DNA of 27,354 nt from a virus. The DNA lies in the IMG/VR virus record IMGVR_UViG_3300009001_000072, positions 1 to 27,354 of that record; one strand, 5' to 3'. This document shows positions 2,986 to 12,199 of the stretch, in pieces. Both the position numbers and the translations under genes were made by a program. Under the pieces are notes generated by a model, which saw only the letters and a list, made by a program, of their open reading frames with translations, was not told the origin of the DNA and did no database searches. Position 1 is the first letter of the stretch; each line of letters opens with the position of its first letter.

Positions 2986-3665
2986 GCGGAGATCGGCCCG
3001 AGCAGATTGACGGCTGCCATGCGGTCGTAGATCTGGCGATTGCGCTCCACGTCCGCGCGACAGTATTCGATGATCCCCGAATGCCGGCCTTCCTCCCAGG
3101 CTGTCGCGACCGACGCCCCATCGAGGCCCTCGCCTTTGCCGGGTATCCCGAGGGCGAAGCAGACCTCGTCCAGGCTCACCATGTCCCGGTGACCGGCCCA
3201 GGTGTGCATCAGGTCCACGATAGTGTCCGACCACGGTTTCGGATCTCGCGGCCAATGCCTCGGCAGCGTCACGCCCAGGATGATGGCGCGAATTGTCAGG
3301 AACCTGATGTCGAACCCGGTGATGTTGTGACCTACGAATCGGGCGGCGCGGCCCCTGTTAAGGGCGTCAAAGAACTGCCGCAAGATCTCTGCCTCGCTCT
3401 CCTGAGACCACTCCACCATATGCGTGACCTCGGTGAGCCCTGTCCCAATCGCCCAGCCGATCGTGCAGACGTGGCCGTAGGCAGGATTCATCCCGGCCTT
3501 GTGGACCGCCTCCAAGATCGCGCCAGGCTTTTGTTCCTGTTCCCATTTCTGGATGGTCTCCTCCTTCTTCATGCTGGCGGGCGGGCGCACTCGCGCGGCC
3601 ACCCGGTCGATGGCCTCCTGCGTCTGCGGGGGGATCGTTTCGATGTCGAAAAAGCAGGTTGTCAT
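2982..3665 (-). CDS. PolB-type DEDDy 3'-5' exonuclease
   Basis: The 227-residue product has the DEDD exonuclease motifs in order: Exo I FDIET (D7, E9), Exo II GHNITGFDIRFL (N114, D119), and Exo III YCRADVERNRQIY (Y201, D205), making it DEDDy type. It resembles the stand-alone exonuclease family related to the proofreading domain of family B polymerases (DNA_pol_B_exo2). It probably trims 3' ends in recombination or replication. No polymerase domain is attached. Its message has the ACTGGAGAC leader motif before ATG 3665. It is followed by ninB with an ATGA overlap and preceded by the annealing protein. Confidence 0.88.
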   Translation of the reverse strand: MTTCFFDIETIPPQTQEAIDRVAARVRPPASMKKEETIQKWEQEQKPGAILEAVHKAGMNPAYGHVCTIGWAIGTGLTEVTHMVEWSQESEAEILRQFFDALNRGRAARFVGHNITGFDIRFLTIRAIILGVTLPRHWPRDPKPWSDTIVDLMHTWAGHRDMVSLDEVCFALGIPGKGEGLDGASVATAWEEGRHSGIIEYCRADVERNRQIYDRMAAVNLLGPISA

Positions 3666-3677
3666 TGTCGTCTCCAG

Positions 3678-4442
3678 TTAGAACGGGATCTCGTCGTCGA
3701 GATCCTTTGCGAGGTTGCTCGCGGGTTTGTCGGCGGGTTTGTCCGCCTGGGCCAGCAGGACGGCCTTGATCTTATCTTTGGTGGACCGGACCGGCCCAAG
3801 GGCCTTCAATGCGGGTGGAAACGCCTTCCAGACCTCCGACAGCCCGTCGAGGCTGGTGCAGGCTGACATTGTCTCCAGAGCCGCCTGGATGGCCTCTCTG
3901 TCGATGGCCGGCGCTGCTGGCTTGTCCTGCGCCTTGGGCGGCTCGCCGCTCTCCTCGTCGCTCCCAGGCTCTTCGTGTGTCGCACGCAGGCTCTCGCCCT
4001 TGTGCCACAGATCCAGGGCTGCGCCGAACCTCATGGCCGCATTCCGCAGGGCATCGCCGATCGTCTCTTTGATTGCGTCTCCGCCCCGCTTGCCGTCCGG
4101 GTGACCATATCCGAGGCGGGCGACGCCGCAGACGGTGAGCCGGATCCACATGCCGCCGTTCTGGTCGATCGCAGGGGTGCCGTCTTCGCTCACGGTGACC
4201 GGCTCCCAGTTCCACTGTGGGTCAGCGTCGAGGAGGCGGTTGGTCAGGGCGGCGTGGCCGACGTAGGAGAGGTGCGTGGCATTGCGATGATGGTAGCCGC
4301 CGCACTGTTTGCAGTTGATGTAGCCGGCCCGGTCCTCGGTCTGCCGTTTGCTCTGCTTAGGCAGCAGCGAGATCTGGCTGTCCGGGAATGGCTCGCGGAG
4401 GAGGGATAATCCGTTAAGGGGTTGAGTCTTCTTGTCAGTCAT
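3678..4442 (-). CDS. erf: ERF/Rad52-like single-strand annealing protein
   Basis: This 254-residue protein matches the ERF-like annealing family of phages: a CKQCGGYHH segment near residue 45, then LSYVGHAALTNRLLDADP, WNWEPV, GGMWIRLTVCGVARLGYG, and DAIKETIGDALRNAAMRFGA. The core covers about residues 35-155. A charged linker and a helical C-terminal region follow, ending in LDDEIPF. It should anneal complementary ssDNA and drive circularisation or replication-linked recombination with SSB and the exonuclease. ATG 4442 was chosen over an upstream TTG because it overlaps the stop of the 36-residue gene (ATGA). The end resembles the SSB acidic tip. Confidence 0.88.
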   Translation of the reverse strand: MTDKKTQPLNGLSLLREPFPDSQISLLPKQSKRQTEDRAGYINCKQCGGYHHRNATHLSYVGHAALTNRLLDADPQWNWEPVTVSEDGTPAIDQNGGMWIRLTVCGVARLGYGHPDGKRGGDAIKETIGDALRNAAMRFGAALDLWHKGESLRATHEEPGSDEESGEPPKAQDKPAAPAIDREAIQAALETMSACTSLDGLSEVWKAFPPALKALGPVRSTKDKIKAVLLAQADKPADKPASNLAKDLDDEIPF

Positions 4443-8497: not shown

Positions 8498-8753
8498 CCG
8501 TGTCCAGTTTTTAGAGGCCATGCAGGCCAGGATCATTGCATCCATGCGGGCGCAGGGGATCTCGCAGACCTATCTGGCGGAGTCCACAGGTCACGCCCGC
8601 CAGACGATCGGCAAGGTGCTCGCCCCGATGACCACAGATCGAGCATTTAAGAATGGACCTAAGATCTGGGAACTGATACAGATCGCAGAAGTATTGGAGG
8701 TTGACCCGCGCCGGCTTATTTTTGGGATGGATAATGATGATCTATCTCAATGA
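8487..8753 (+). CDS. XRE-family HTH regulator (88 aa)
   Basis: The product carries an XRE helix-turn-helix: ARIIASMRAQGISQTYLAES and TGHARQTIGKVLAP, then a helical segment IWELIQIAEVLEVDPRRLIF, the usual end of such domains. It starts 11 bases before the previous stop with GGAGG upstream. It is a third potential repressor for the operators described here. Base composition in its second half is more AT-rich than its neighbours, hinting at a different origin. It ends inside the start of the methyltransferase gene. Confidence 0.78.
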   Translation: MARDRVQFLEAMQARIIASMRAQGISQTYLAESTGHARQTIGKVLAPMTTDRAFKNGPKIWELIQIAEVLEVDPRRLIFGMDNDDLSQ

Positions 8754-9666
8754 CAATGAATCCTATGTAGCGGCGTGGTTACATAACCTGGCGCGCGAAA
8801 ATTTACTCGGGAACAACGTGAAAATTGATGACAGAAGCATCGCCGAGGTCAGCGCTGACGATGTCAGGGGATCAACGCAGGCCCACTTCTTCGCCGGCAT
8901 CGGTGGATGGCCGCTCGCTCTCCAGTTGGCCGGATGGCCAGCAGATGGACCTGTTTGGACCGGATCCCCGCCATGCCAACCCTTCTCCAGCGCCGGCAAA
9001 CGAGCAGGGGCTGCCGACGAGCGACACCTCTGGCCAGAAATGCGCCGCCTCATTGAGGACTGCCGCCCTCCAGTCGTCTTTGGCGAGCAAGTTGCGTCGG
9101 ACGATGGCCGCCGCTGGCTCTCCCGAGTACGCGATGACCTTGAAGGGGTGGGCTATGGGGTCGGGGCCGCCGATCTGTGCGCTGCGGGCGTCGGCGCTCC
9201 CCACGTCAGGCAGCGGCTCTATTGGGGGGCTATCCGGCTGGACAACCCCCAACGCCCGCGACTGGCGGAGCGAGAGCAGCAGTGCGAGTTTCGAGGCGGA
9301 GCGGTTCGAGGATACCCGCGGGAAGAGCCTGTCGTATCAGGCGATCCTGGCTGGCTGGCCGACGCCGACGACGACGGATGCGATCAAGGGGGGGAAGGTC
9401 TCGCCCCGGCCAGGGATGATGGGGCTGTCGGAGACGGCTCCGCTGGTGATTGGAACGGATCCGCCACCCGCTGGCACCTCTGCCGAGACCTCCCGCAGCA
9501 CAAGTGGCGCAGGATACCGGCTGAACCCGAACTTTTCCCGCTGGCTCATGGGGTACCCGGCAGAGTGGGCCAATTGCGCGCCTACGGCAACGCCATCGTC
9601 CCCCAGGTAGCCGCGCTGTTCATCCGGCATTTCATGGCTGCAGTGGAGGATACATGCCGCGACTGA
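8734..9666 (+). CDS. C5-cytosine DNA methyltransferase
   Basis: The 310-residue protein has the ordered C5 methyltransferase motifs: I HFFAGIGGWPLAL (about 51-63), IV GSPPCQPFSSAGK with catalytic C81, VI VVFGEQVAS with E118, VIII RQRLYW (159-164), and IX/X VGQLRAYGNAIVPQVAALFI near the C-terminus. It transfers a methyl group from SAM to cytosine, perhaps to protect phage DNA. The target-recognition stretch (about 165-265) is compositionally odd because the same DNA encodes another protein in a second frame. No partner endonuclease of a classic restriction system is adjacent. Starts at 8734 or 8737 are both possible; the gene overlaps the XRE gene by 20 bases. Confidence 0.9.
   Translation: MMIYLNDNESYVAAWLHNLARENLLGNNVKIDDRSIAEVSADDVRGSTQAHFFAGIGGWPLALQLAGWPADGPVWTGSPPCQPFSSAGKRAGAADERHLWPEMRRLIEDCRPPVVFGEQVASDDGRRWLSRVRDDLEGVGYGVGAADLCAAGVGAPHVRQRLYWGAIRLDNPQRPRLAEREQQCEFRGGAVRGYPREEPVVSGDPGWLADADDDGCDQGGEGLAPARDDGAVGDGSAGDWNGSATRWHLCRDLPQHKWRRIPAEPELFPLAHGVPGRVGQLRAYGNAIVPQVAALFIRHFMAAVEDTCRD
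8828..9610 (+). CDS. Overprinted phage protein inside the methyltransferase gene
   Basis: A 260-residue frame lies wholly within the methyltransferase gene. It contains strings known from proteins that commonly accompany phage C5 methyltransferases: MDLFGP near residue 40, SPEYAMTLKGWAMGSGPPIC, ALRASALPTSGSGS, repeated W(P/T)TP-x-ARDW-like segments, and a C-terminal LNPNFSRWLMGYPAEW then CAPTATPSSPR. These ordered Trp and Pro motifs are not expected in a chance shadow frame. ATG 8828 gives the full frame; ATG 8945, at MDLFG, is an equally plausible start (221 residues). The function is unknown; a link to base modification or target recognition is only a guess. Confidence 0.65.
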   Translation: MTEASPRSALTMSGDQRRPTSSPASVDGRSLSSWPDGQQMDLFGPDPRHANPSPAPANEQGLPTSDTSGQKCAASLRTAALQSSLASKLRRTMAAAGSPEYAMTLKGWAMGSGPPICALRASALPTSGSGSIGGLSGWTTPNARDWRSESSSASFEAERFEDTRGKSLSYQAILAGWPTPTTTDAIKGGKVSPRPGMMGLSETAPLVIGTDPPPAGTSAETSRSTSGAGYRLNPNFSRWLMGYPAEWANCAPTATPSSPR

Positions 9667-9995
9667 AGGCGTCCGAGAGCCAGGAGCAGATGGCGTTCGT
9701 GGACTGGTTTCGGCGGGCCTATCCCAGTCACCTCATCATGCATATCCCTAACGGCGAGCGGCGTGACGCCCGCACTGGTAGCAAACTGAAACGCATGGGG
9801 GTGCTGCCAGGGGTGCCGGATCTTTTCATCCCGGAGTTGGCTCTCTGGGTGGAGATGAAAGGCACCTCGGGCGGTCGATTGTCGAAGGATCAGGAGCGGG
9901 TGATCGGATTGTTGGAGATCGCCGGCTATGACGTGATCGTGGCCCACGGCTGGGAAGATGCCCGCCGTCAGGTCACAGAACATTTACAGGGATAG
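9654..9995 (+). CDS. VRR-NUC domain nuclease
   Basis: The 113-residue protein is a stand-alone VRR-NUC module of the PD-(D/E)XK superfamily: E11 in the first helix, GVPDLFIP with D56, LWVEMKGTSGG with E67 and K69, and SKDQ with Q80. This order matches the family, which includes structure-selective nucleases such as FAN1 and many phage proteins. It probably resolves branched DNA during replication or packaging. The ATG lies 13 bases before the methyltransferase stop, so the two are coupled. Confidence 0.88.
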   Translation: MPRLKASESQEQMAFVDWFRRAYPSHLIMHIPNGERRDARTGSKLKRMGVLPGVPDLFIPELALWVEMKGTSGGRLSKDQERVIGLLEIAGYDVIVAHGWEDARRQVTEHLQG

Positions 9996-9999
9996 GCCG

Positions 10000-10854
10000 G
10001 TGGACCTTCACCGTAGGCCGACCGCGGGCGCGGCCTTCAACGCCCAGGCTCTCTACCCAGGTGGCCCACCTGTCTGGGATGAGCAAACCGTCTCCGCCGG
10101 TCTAGGGGATGTTTGGCGGAAAGTCTGGGAAGCCCGTATTCCAGGAGTCCAAAGTGCAATGGTAACCGCTCGCGACCGCGCCGAGGTCAGTACCACCCTC
10201 AACTCAGCCGCCGTTGGCCTGATGGACGCCGGCCTGGATTGGTATGTCGGGCAGACGGCCCCGCAGCAGGAGTGGCGGGCGCACGGGATCCTGGGAGACC
10301 TGGACATCCCGGCATTCCTGCCAACGCAAAGCCGGTGGATTAGCCCATCGCGACACCGGAAAACTAAGACCCGCCGGCAGTACGCGATCATGCCCAGGAT
10401 GCTGTTCGTCGGGTTCAGTCGCGGCCATGAGCGCTGGCTCGATCTGCTCAACCGGACGCCGGTCATGTCGGTGATCGGTGTGGCTGGTGTCCCGACTGCC
10501 CTGCCAGGACACGTCGTCCAGGGCTTCGTCGATCGGATCGGGGCTGAGGTCGATCGGCCTGACTGGCAGCGGCACATGCCGCGCGGGCGAGAATATAAGG
10601 TGGGCGATCGTGTCCGCATCATAGACGGGGCTCTCAAGGGTCACGTCGTAACGGTCGCGGAAATCCGCGGGCCGAAATCCTGGGTGCTGTCTCAGCAGAT
10701 GCTGCTGGCTCACGCGCTCGAAATCCCAACGCGATATCTGGAGATAGATCGCGATGACACTACAGACAATCGTCCTCCGATACGACGAGATGCTGATGGC
10801 CGCACAGGCCGGCGTCCTCCGAACAATCGAAAATCTCAAGAAGGGCAGACGTGA
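10000..10854 (+). CDS. NusG/RfaH-like transcription elongation factor
   Basis: The protein has a NusG N-terminal domain from about residue 80 (WYVGQTAPQQEWRAHGIL, AFLPTQ, YAIMPRMLFVGFSRG, MSVIGVAGVPTALP) and a KOW motif near residues 199-226 (YKVGDRVRIIDGALKGHVV). NusG-type proteins bind RNA polymerase and suppress pausing or termination. Encoded shortly before the late genes, it may do the job of lambda Q; that is inference. The start is uncertain: GTG 10000, ATG 10159 and ATG 10222 (two residues before WYV region, like ordinary NusG) are all in frame. The last 100 bases overlap the next gene. Confidence 0.72.
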   Translation: MDLHRRPTAGAAFNAQALYPGGPPVWDEQTVSAGLGDVWRKVWEARIPGVQSAMVTARDRAEVSTTLNSAAVGLMDAGLDWYVGQTAPQQEWRAHGILGDLDIPAFLPTQSRWISPSRHRKTKTRRQYAIMPRMLFVGFSRGHERWLDLLNRTPVMSVIGVAGVPTALPGHVVQGFVDRIGAEVDRPDWQRHMPRGREYKVGDRVRIIDGALKGHVVTVAEIRGPKSWVLSQQMLLAHALEIPTRYLEIDRDDTTDNRPPIRRDADGRTGRRPPNNRKSQEGQT

Positions 10855-11254: not shown

Positions 11255-11474
11255 GGAAGATTTCTGCTGGGGAGCATATCCCGAGTTTAGCGGCGAGTGT
11301 CTGCGCGAGAACATCACGGCTGTCTGGCGTGACGGACGCGTGGCCATGGGTTGCCTGACCTGCATGACGATCCTGTCGGAGTTTATAGACACGCAGACAC
11401 CCCGGCAGCCAGACACGCTGGGTGAGTGGCGGGACAGCGGAGATCTGGTGCGGAAGGCGGACCTGGGGCGATGA
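11247..11474 (+). CDS. Small cysteine-containing protein (75 aa)
   Basis: The product begins MPREDFCWGAYPEFSGECLR, with cysteines at 7, 18, 36 and 39 (CLTC), which could form a small zinc site. The rest is polar. It starts eight bases before the previous stop with GGAGG upstream and ends in an ATGA overlap with the next gene, so translation seems continuous through the three genes. No family was recognised. Confidence 0.65.
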   Translation: MPREDFCWGAYPEFSGECLRENITAVWRDGRVAMGCLTCMTILSEFIDTQTPRQPDTLGEWRDSGDLVRKADLGR

Positions 11475-12199
11475 CGCAAAACACCAGCCACGCAGTGATG
11501 TCCCAGCGGTCAGAGCCGATCGGCAGCCGCGATGATTTCCCGACGCCGCCTTGGGCCGTGAGAGCCCTCTGTGAGCATGTGCTGTTCCACGGCGAGGCCG
11601 CATCCACTGTCGCGAGACTGACGGCCTGGGAGCCGGCCTGCGGTCGAGGTTATATGGGCCACGCCCTGGAGGAGTATTTCGGCCACGTTGTGCAGTCTGA
11701 CATCCACAAATACCGACCGGAGGCGAAATACAAGGTCCATGATTTCCTGGGCGGCGAAGACCCCAACCCTCGCTGGTATCGCGACATCGACTGGATCATT
11801 ACCAACCCGCCGTTTTTATTGGCCGAGGCATTCTACCGCCGCGCCAGGCTGATCCGCCCGCGGCACGGGTTCGCCCTGCTGTGCAGATCAAACTGGATGG
11901 AGGGGATCGCGCGGTTTGAAAACATCTTCCAGCGAGACCCGCCGAACATCATCGCGCAGCACGTCGAGCGGGTGCCGATGGTGAGGGGGCGCTATGACCC
12001 CAAGGCATCAAGCGCCACCGCATATGCGTGGTTTGTCTGGTCCCACACGCTCGCTCCACAGCAGGGCAGGACGCGGCTCGTGTGGATCCCACCGGGCAGC
12101 CGGCGGCGGTATTACCGAGAGGGCGACGAGCATATGCACCGTTCCGGTCAACCCCCCACCTTAACCGGAACTCCCGACAAAATTGTGGCGATGGGTTGA
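11471..12199 (+). CDS. Class I SAM-dependent DNA methyltransferase, probably N6-adenine type
   Basis: The 242-residue protein has DDFPTPPWAVRALCEHVL near the N-terminus, motif I as WEPACGRGYMGHAL (about 53-65), an acidic DI turn (QSDIHKY), and motif IV as IITNPPF (about 109-115). (N/D)PP(F/Y) is the catalytic motif of amino-methyltransferases, and this layout is common in phage N6-adenine enzymes. ATG 11471 overlaps the previous stop (ATGA). Target site is unknown. It is the second methyltransferase in the window and the last gene before the non-coding region ahead of the terminase. Confidence 0.8.
   Translation: MTQNTSHAVMSQRSEPIGSRDDFPTPPWAVRALCEHVLFHGEAASTVARLTAWEPACGRGYMGHALEEYFGHVVQSDIHKYRPEAKYKVHDFLGGEDPNPRWYRDIDWIITNPPFLLAEAFYRRARLIRPRHGFALLCRSNWMEGIARFENIFQRDPPNIIAQHVERVPMVRGRYDPKASSATAYAWFVWSHTLAPQQGRTRLVWIPPGSRRRYYREGDEHMHRSGQPPTLTGTPDKIVAMG

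Follow-up and report, generated by a model that had tools for sequence, protein, structure and literature searches.

A gene nested in the +1 frame of phage C5 cytosine methyltransferase genes probably encodes a target-recognition subunit

The viral DNA analysed here, IMG/VR record IMGVR_UViG_3300009001_000072 (positions 1 to 27,354; this whole stretch of 27,354 nucleotides is referred to as the window), carries a C5 cytosine methyltransferase gene, denoted alpha, and within it, in the +1 frame, a second open reading frame (ORF), denoted beta. From about position 9050 on, this second frame is, with hardly any room for doubt, a genuine overlapping gene: beta is selected as a protein, selection switches from one frame to the other along the locus, cassettes within beta shuffle, and both frames are held open. 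Hundreds of phage and prophage genomes show this same nesting. We consider it likely, with a probability of roughly three in four, that beta is the target-recognition subunit of a two-polypeptide C5 methyltransferase encoded in two frames, a reading under which beta would be translated, would form a complex with alpha, would take part in DNA recognition and would contribute motif IX.

Results

The second ORF (TTG at 8825, ATG at 8828, stop codon at 9608-9610) is enclosed by the methyltransferase ORF (8701-9666), and the motifs quoted from it in the initial annotation of the window, which had been made from the sequence alone, are indeed present. The locus comprises the following parts.

8701..9666, + strand: alpha, C5 cytosine methyltransferase ORF with motifs I-VIII and X (ORF list, profile matches, alignment)
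8825..9610, + strand: beta ORF as listed, +1 relative to alpha (ORF list; candidate starts ATG 8828, 8861 and 8945)
8828..9049, + strand: second frame ahead of its constrained part, MDLFGP included; a shadow of alpha (omega-like values, synonymous variability, stops in the relatives L003 and L004)
8971..8988, + strand: alpha motif IV, PCQPFS, with the catalytic Cys; zero point for codon offsets (invariant columns P91, C92, P94 and S96)
9050..9610, + strand: constrained part of beta including the stop codon (breakpoint at codon +26, Mann-Whitney p 1.6e-8; omega-like values)
9053..9196, + strand: predicted N-terminal helix and beta-hairpin of beta, dual-coding with alpha motifs V-VIII (AlphaFold model, synonymous variability)
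9211..9225, + strand: alpha motif VIII, QRLYW (alignment)
9239..9355, + strand: beta cassette 1 (WTTPNARDWRSESSSASFEAERFEDTRGKSLSYQAILAG), candidate target-recognition module
9356..9445, + strand: beta cassette 2 (WPTPTTTDAIKGGKVSPRPGMMGLSETAPL), candidate target-recognition module
9518..9568, + strand: motif-IX-like tail of beta, RLNPNFSRWLMGYPAEW, dual-coding with the alpha segment directly before motif X (alignment, profile comparison)
9583..9612, + strand: alpha motif X, YGNAIVPQVA, overlapping the 3' end of beta (alignment)

Stop codons were counted against a null in which synonymous codons are shuffled within alpha, the alpha protein and its codon usage being kept. Across 157 dereplicated relatives, many of which came from beta queries, the +1 frame contains 19 stops between motifs IV and X against 431.3 expected, and 145 loci are stop-free in this frame against 10.3 expected; the +2 frame of the same loci contains 1554 stops. 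The null is calibrated, because 14 ordinary C5 methyltransferases match its expectation (143 stops versus 141.5). For the window itself the second-frame region has no stop against 3.3 expected (P of no stop 0.006 under synonymous shuffling), a test that presupposes open ORFs and has given way to the multi-locus counts and the calibration on ordinary enzymes. The alpha frame is likewise kept open across the cassettes, with a single stop against 496 expected (168 loci, mostly found by beta), and must therefore be translated across them to reach the C-terminal block and motif X, although its own residues in this stretch show no constraint.

Substitutions in pairwise comparisons were sorted by class for each of the two frames, and the resulting omega-like ratios for alpha/beta, which are descriptive (the pairs are non-independent and kappa was fixed at 2), are 0.27/2.06 in the N-terminal region, 0.29/2.08 between the presumed start of beta and motif IV, 0.50/1.10 over motifs IV-VIII, 1.83/0.39 from motif VIII to the C-terminal block (the cassettes), 0.52/0.70 over the last 180 nt before motif X and 0.30/1.59 after motif X. 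On these regional ratios selection acts on alpha in the catalytic part, on beta in the middle and on both in the last ~180 nt; in the window, the second frame alone is under selection from ~9226 to 9440. Four-fold synonymous sites of alpha have a variability of 0.61 before and 0.35 after a breakpoint that is best placed 26 codons past motif IV (codon +26, ~9050; p 1.6e-8), where the helix predicted with confidence for beta also begins (9053). It is this frame-specific selection, rather than any free-standing copy, which tells us that beta is not a shadow. The initial annotation was thus right to see a second, conserved protein encoded on top of the methyltransferase, as the stop deficit and the selection from ~9050 on attest, and its estimate of about 780 bases coding in both frames has to be narrowed, 8828-~9049 being under selection in alpha only and ~9226-9440 in the second frame only.

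Between 8828 and ~9049 the omega-like value of the second frame is 2.08, equal to that upstream of any beta, so there is no selection beyond that on alpha, and the relatives L003 and L004 have stops in this part. The MDLFGP that the initial annotation had taken for a meaningful motif is on these grounds the shadow of conserved alpha residues, GPVWTG. A reading of QMDLFG as a beta-sliding-clamp-binding motif was also considered and ruled out, the frame being unselected there and D-L-F not being conserved.

Between its hairpin and its tail, beta carries zero to six exchangeable repeats of the 'WPTP..D' type, which open with W-[PAT]-T-P and in most cases span 29-60 residues (median ~35). Clustering at 65% identity distributes 433 such cassettes among 203 clusters, and single clusters turn up in different slots; that of cassette 2 of the window, for instance, has 17 members in slots 1-4. 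Altogether 107 cassette pairs with at least 80% identity occupy different slots of loci whose cores are less than 70% identical in DNA, and two cassettes of one cluster never share a locus (0 versus 6.0 expected, P 0.0014). Divergence of matched cassettes at beta codon positions 1, 2 and 3 is 0.203, 0.146 and 0.492, the omega-like value being 0.30 in beta and 2.43 in alpha. Several short exchangeable modules between motifs VIII and IX, the mark of a multispecific array of target-recognition domains (TRDs), are present here in the beta frame.

Alpha itself (opening with TTG at 8701, ATG 8734 or 8737 being more likely starts) matches PHROG 363 (phrog_363) with an E value of 9e-69 and Pfam PF00145 with an E value of 1.1e-17, the latter over profile positions 66-168 only, which correspond to motifs IV-VIII. 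It displays the hallmarks of C5 methyltransferases: motif I, PCQ of motif IV, E[NQ]V of motif VI, motif VIII and GN of motif X. It can be aligned with ordinary C5 enzymes over motifs I-VIII and again near motif X, with the TRD absent between them: in the alignment of relatives no conserved columns that could represent a TRD of its own were found from motif VIII to the C-terminal block, exactly the stretch where ordinary enzymes carry theirs. Nor was a clear motif IX found in alpha, whose corresponding region aligns weakly with ordinary enzymes. Some relatives depart from this layout. About 100-200 extra alpha residues lie between the end of beta and motif X in Komagataeibacter phage phiKX1 (L285, 990-2636) and in L011, L023 and L025. 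In L044 (2809-3784, + strand) motif X of alpha and the beta tail are both gone, as if the subunits had decayed in step. The methyltransferase/beta gene of L048 (~3400-3840, + strand) is seemingly split by an insert, possibly a homing element, whose beta-frame translation looks by eye like an HNH endonuclease.

The tail of beta resembles C5 motif IX (compare RRLTPRECARLMGYPDSF of L288) and, against the whole profile of the 14 ordinary enzymes, aligns best exactly on that motif. An AlphaFold model of beta predicts a helix at residues 15-35 and strands at 40-47 and 55-62 with a predicted local distance difference test score (pLDDT) of ~70-92, two helices of the tail also being confident; in two runs with beta folded alone, the pLDDT was 55 and 63. 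Four viral matches of the models have Foldseek E values under 0.001, including proteins of the same family as beta.

Relatives of beta were found by tblastn in 196 phage records from many genera, every one at less than 60% identity. The initial annotation had stated that motifs of this kind recur beside phage C5 methyltransferases, and beta is found not only beside but inside them: 287 of the 293 ORFs that match the beta profile in the fetched loci overlap alpha in +1, four are frame-shifted, and two, both short matches, lack an overlapping alpha match. No free-standing or in-frame fused beta was encountered among these 293 ORFs. Seven ORFs are matched by both the alpha and the beta profile, with the frames joined part-way, most simply by indels or through assembly. 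Beta matches PHROG 1008 and PHROG 31772, both labelled DNA methyltransferase; no family for it was found in Pfam or NCBIfam, and its profile has no match among PDB sequences. Of the three outcomes named in the initial annotation as speaking against a second gene (no homologues beyond shadow translations, stops in close relatives, selection confined to the methyltransferase frame), none materialised from ~9050 on, with the single reservation that the homologues include no free-standing example.

A second alpha clade repeats the arrangement. The Kluyvera genome locus L354 (2273-3020, + strand) encodes a distinct alpha with 29% identity to that of the window, and a +1 ORF ending GQLNPQWVEWFMGWPIGWTEL that matches the beta profile (hhalign probability 95.6%, E 1.3e-8); part of the similarity between the betas of the two clades could derive from that between the alphas, the frames being overlapped. 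This clade is widespread, with a nested +1 beta bearing WPT-type cassettes. In 41 of its viral loci (within L356-L435), found by an alpha query alone, the +1 frame has no stops against 103.7 expected and is open in 41 of 41 loci against 2.3 expected. The omega-like ratios for alpha/beta reveal the same switch by successive region (0.27/1.28, 0.27/1.70, 0.43/1.06, 1.18/0.36, 0.79/0.42 and 0.32/0.89), and the cassette region and the tail are beta-selected in both clades. On balance we favour the view that these loci represent a large and ancient class of phage C5 methyltransferases with at least two alpha clades and a TRD array in a +1 gene, the cassettes being open in both frames and selected in one.

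Several neighbours of the locus in the window deserve mention. A VRR-NUC nuclease gene (9654-9995, + strand) directly follows the methyltransferase gene and overlaps its end, and such a neighbour is likewise annotated next to many E. coli prophage copies. It is followed by a gene for a NusG/KOW-domain protein (9958-10854, + strand; PHROG 6386, transcription antiterminator). A few genes downstream of alpha lies a second putative DNA methyltransferase gene (11426-12196, + strand; PHROG 799, E 2.4e-50), and the phage probably carries two modification enzymes.

Discussion

The initial annotation had proposed a role for the second protein in target choice, and this appears to be the best explanation of a protein whose cassettes lie at the place of the TRD in an enzyme that lacks one. 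We envisage that alpha (frame 0) would supply the S-adenosylmethionine-binding and catalytic motifs I-VIII plus motif X, and that the nested beta would supply the helix and hairpin, presumably docking on alpha, together with exchangeable target-recognition cassettes (two in the window) and the motif-IX-like tail. Methylation would require association of the two polypeptides. The number and kind of cassettes would determine how many and which sequences are methylated, as do the TRDs of multispecific phage enzymes, and stacked specificities would presumably shield phage DNA from host restriction. The sole reason for reading alpha through the cassette DNA would be that motif X is encoded on its far side, and the alpha residues made on the way would be filler.

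Several observations weigh against this proposal. The match of the beta tail to motif IX is weak (hhalign E 0.056, with 5 of 200 column permutations scoring as high), and the C-terminal block of alpha itself aligns weakly with the motif IX-X region. The cassettes are poorly modelled when beta is folded alone (pLDDT ~45-60), an outcome one could anticipate for a protein whose folding depends on alpha and DNA, and a Foldseek search with the beta models returned no solved TRD or other solved structure. A passage of PMC3404938 places the predicted TRD of another two-polypeptide enzyme, M.EcoHK31I, on the large subunit, contrary to our placement on beta. Finally, the window has no ATG, GTG or TTG where most relatives start beta, the codons at +13..+15 being CTG CCG ACG.

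The lack of a solved structure or a Pfam family matching beta, and the weakness of its similarity to motif IX, would also suit a separate accessory protein that is not the enzyme's recognition half but, for example, a regulator, an inhibitor, or a factor that counteracts restriction or controls DNA modification. We regard this as rather unlikely: the selected cassettes sit exactly where alpha lacks a TRD, they are modular like multispecific TRDs, and no beta without alpha was found among the 293 matching ORFs, fragments excepted.

How beta would be initiated bears on another alternative, namely programmed ribosomal frameshifting from alpha, which would yield a fusion of alpha motifs I-IV with beta and dispense with internal initiation. 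Canonical start candidates for beta in the window are found upstream at 8828, 8861 and 8945 and downstream at ~9053 (TTG); the missing start near 9011 and the abrupt onset of beta constraint within alpha both fit a frameshift. In 90 of 123 relatives, however, ATG, GTG or TTG occurs at offsets +11..+16 (9011-9017 in window coordinates), preceded often by AAGGAG and with a mean Shine-Dalgarno energy of -5.6 kcal/mol, better than that of candidates elsewhere, and on the evidence of these start sites we consider a frameshift improbable. In phage N15, the beta ORF cannot open much before this position.

The idea that high G+C content (62%) and conserved methyltransferase motifs merely keep a shadow ORF open and conserved-looking does hold for 8828-9049, where selection is seen in alpha alone, and is in keeping with the want of a free-standing beta, but for the part from ~9050 on it is already refuted and can hardly be entertained, given the stop deficit in both clades (also where only alpha served as query), its absence from ordinary methyltransferases, and the fact that within the cassettes it is alpha, not beta, that acts as the shadow.

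The nested gene probably accounts for half of the enzyme, namely the half with the greatest capacity to evolve. If beta is indeed the recognition subunit, this would explain why common phage 'DNA cytosine methyltransferases' appear to lack a recognition domain, and would mean that most annotations overlook an essential subunit. Only beta or one of the two frames is annotated in PMG1, FoX4 and phiKX1, both are annotated in K1 phages, and only alpha in the seven E. coli chromosomal copies inspected. A phage could then exchange its methylation specificities and accumulate several of them, with translation of the catalytic subunit running through the cassettes as filler. The locus is a natural system for direct tests of specificity cassettes and of double-coding constraint; to our knowledge, bacteria and phages offer few long nested pairs of same-strand genes in which selection on both frames can be demonstrated.

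Comparison with known systems

The small subunit of M.EcoHK31I (recognition sequence YGGCCR) is reportedly an alternative-frame product of ~176 aa within the large one. The description in PMC3404938 gives this enzyme two polypeptides, the large one with motifs I-VIII and X plus the predicted TRD and the small one with motif IX; judged by that description, alpha/beta would resemble it in the two-polypeptide C5 layout with motifs I-VIII and X on the large partner, the motif-IX-like tail of beta being a candidate counterpart of motif IX on the small one. In alpha/beta, the first gene encloses another in the +1 frame, and both are under selection. Here, unlike in M.EcoHK31I, the selected variable region lies on the nested rather than the large subunit, the cassettes vary from zero to six and are exchanged between phages, and the carriers are phages and prophages; if our reading is true, the placement of the recognition domain in M.EcoHK31I-type enzymes would be corrected. 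The EcoHK31I sequence is X82231 (PMC6174562), and a search for M.EcoHK31I itself through E. coli genomes yielded prophage-like copies only, all seven inspected matches lying in prophage-like surroundings. Those annotated regions around alpha/beta loci that were inspected revealed no restriction partner. M.AquI, also described in PMC3404938, is a C5 methyltransferase in two subunits split inside the variable region; in our case alpha retains motif X and encloses the small gene.

The beta reading frame is what PHROG 1008, PHROG 31772 and the K1 coliphage 'Mte8-like protein' represent, and their labels (methyltransferase or Mte8-like) say nothing of a nested two-subunit layout. Within the papers covered, our search for literature on overlap in phage methyltransferases found nothing specific, which is no proof of novelty.

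The multispecific enzymes of Bacillus phages (M.SPR, M.phi3T and M.H2I) carry short exchangeable target-recognition arrays between motifs VIII and IX. Multispecific C5 methyltransferases are also cited in PMC8936443. Beta resembles these three in the modular array between motifs VIII and IX, but they are single polypeptides read in one frame, whereas here the array lies in another frame and on another polypeptide than the catalytic domain.
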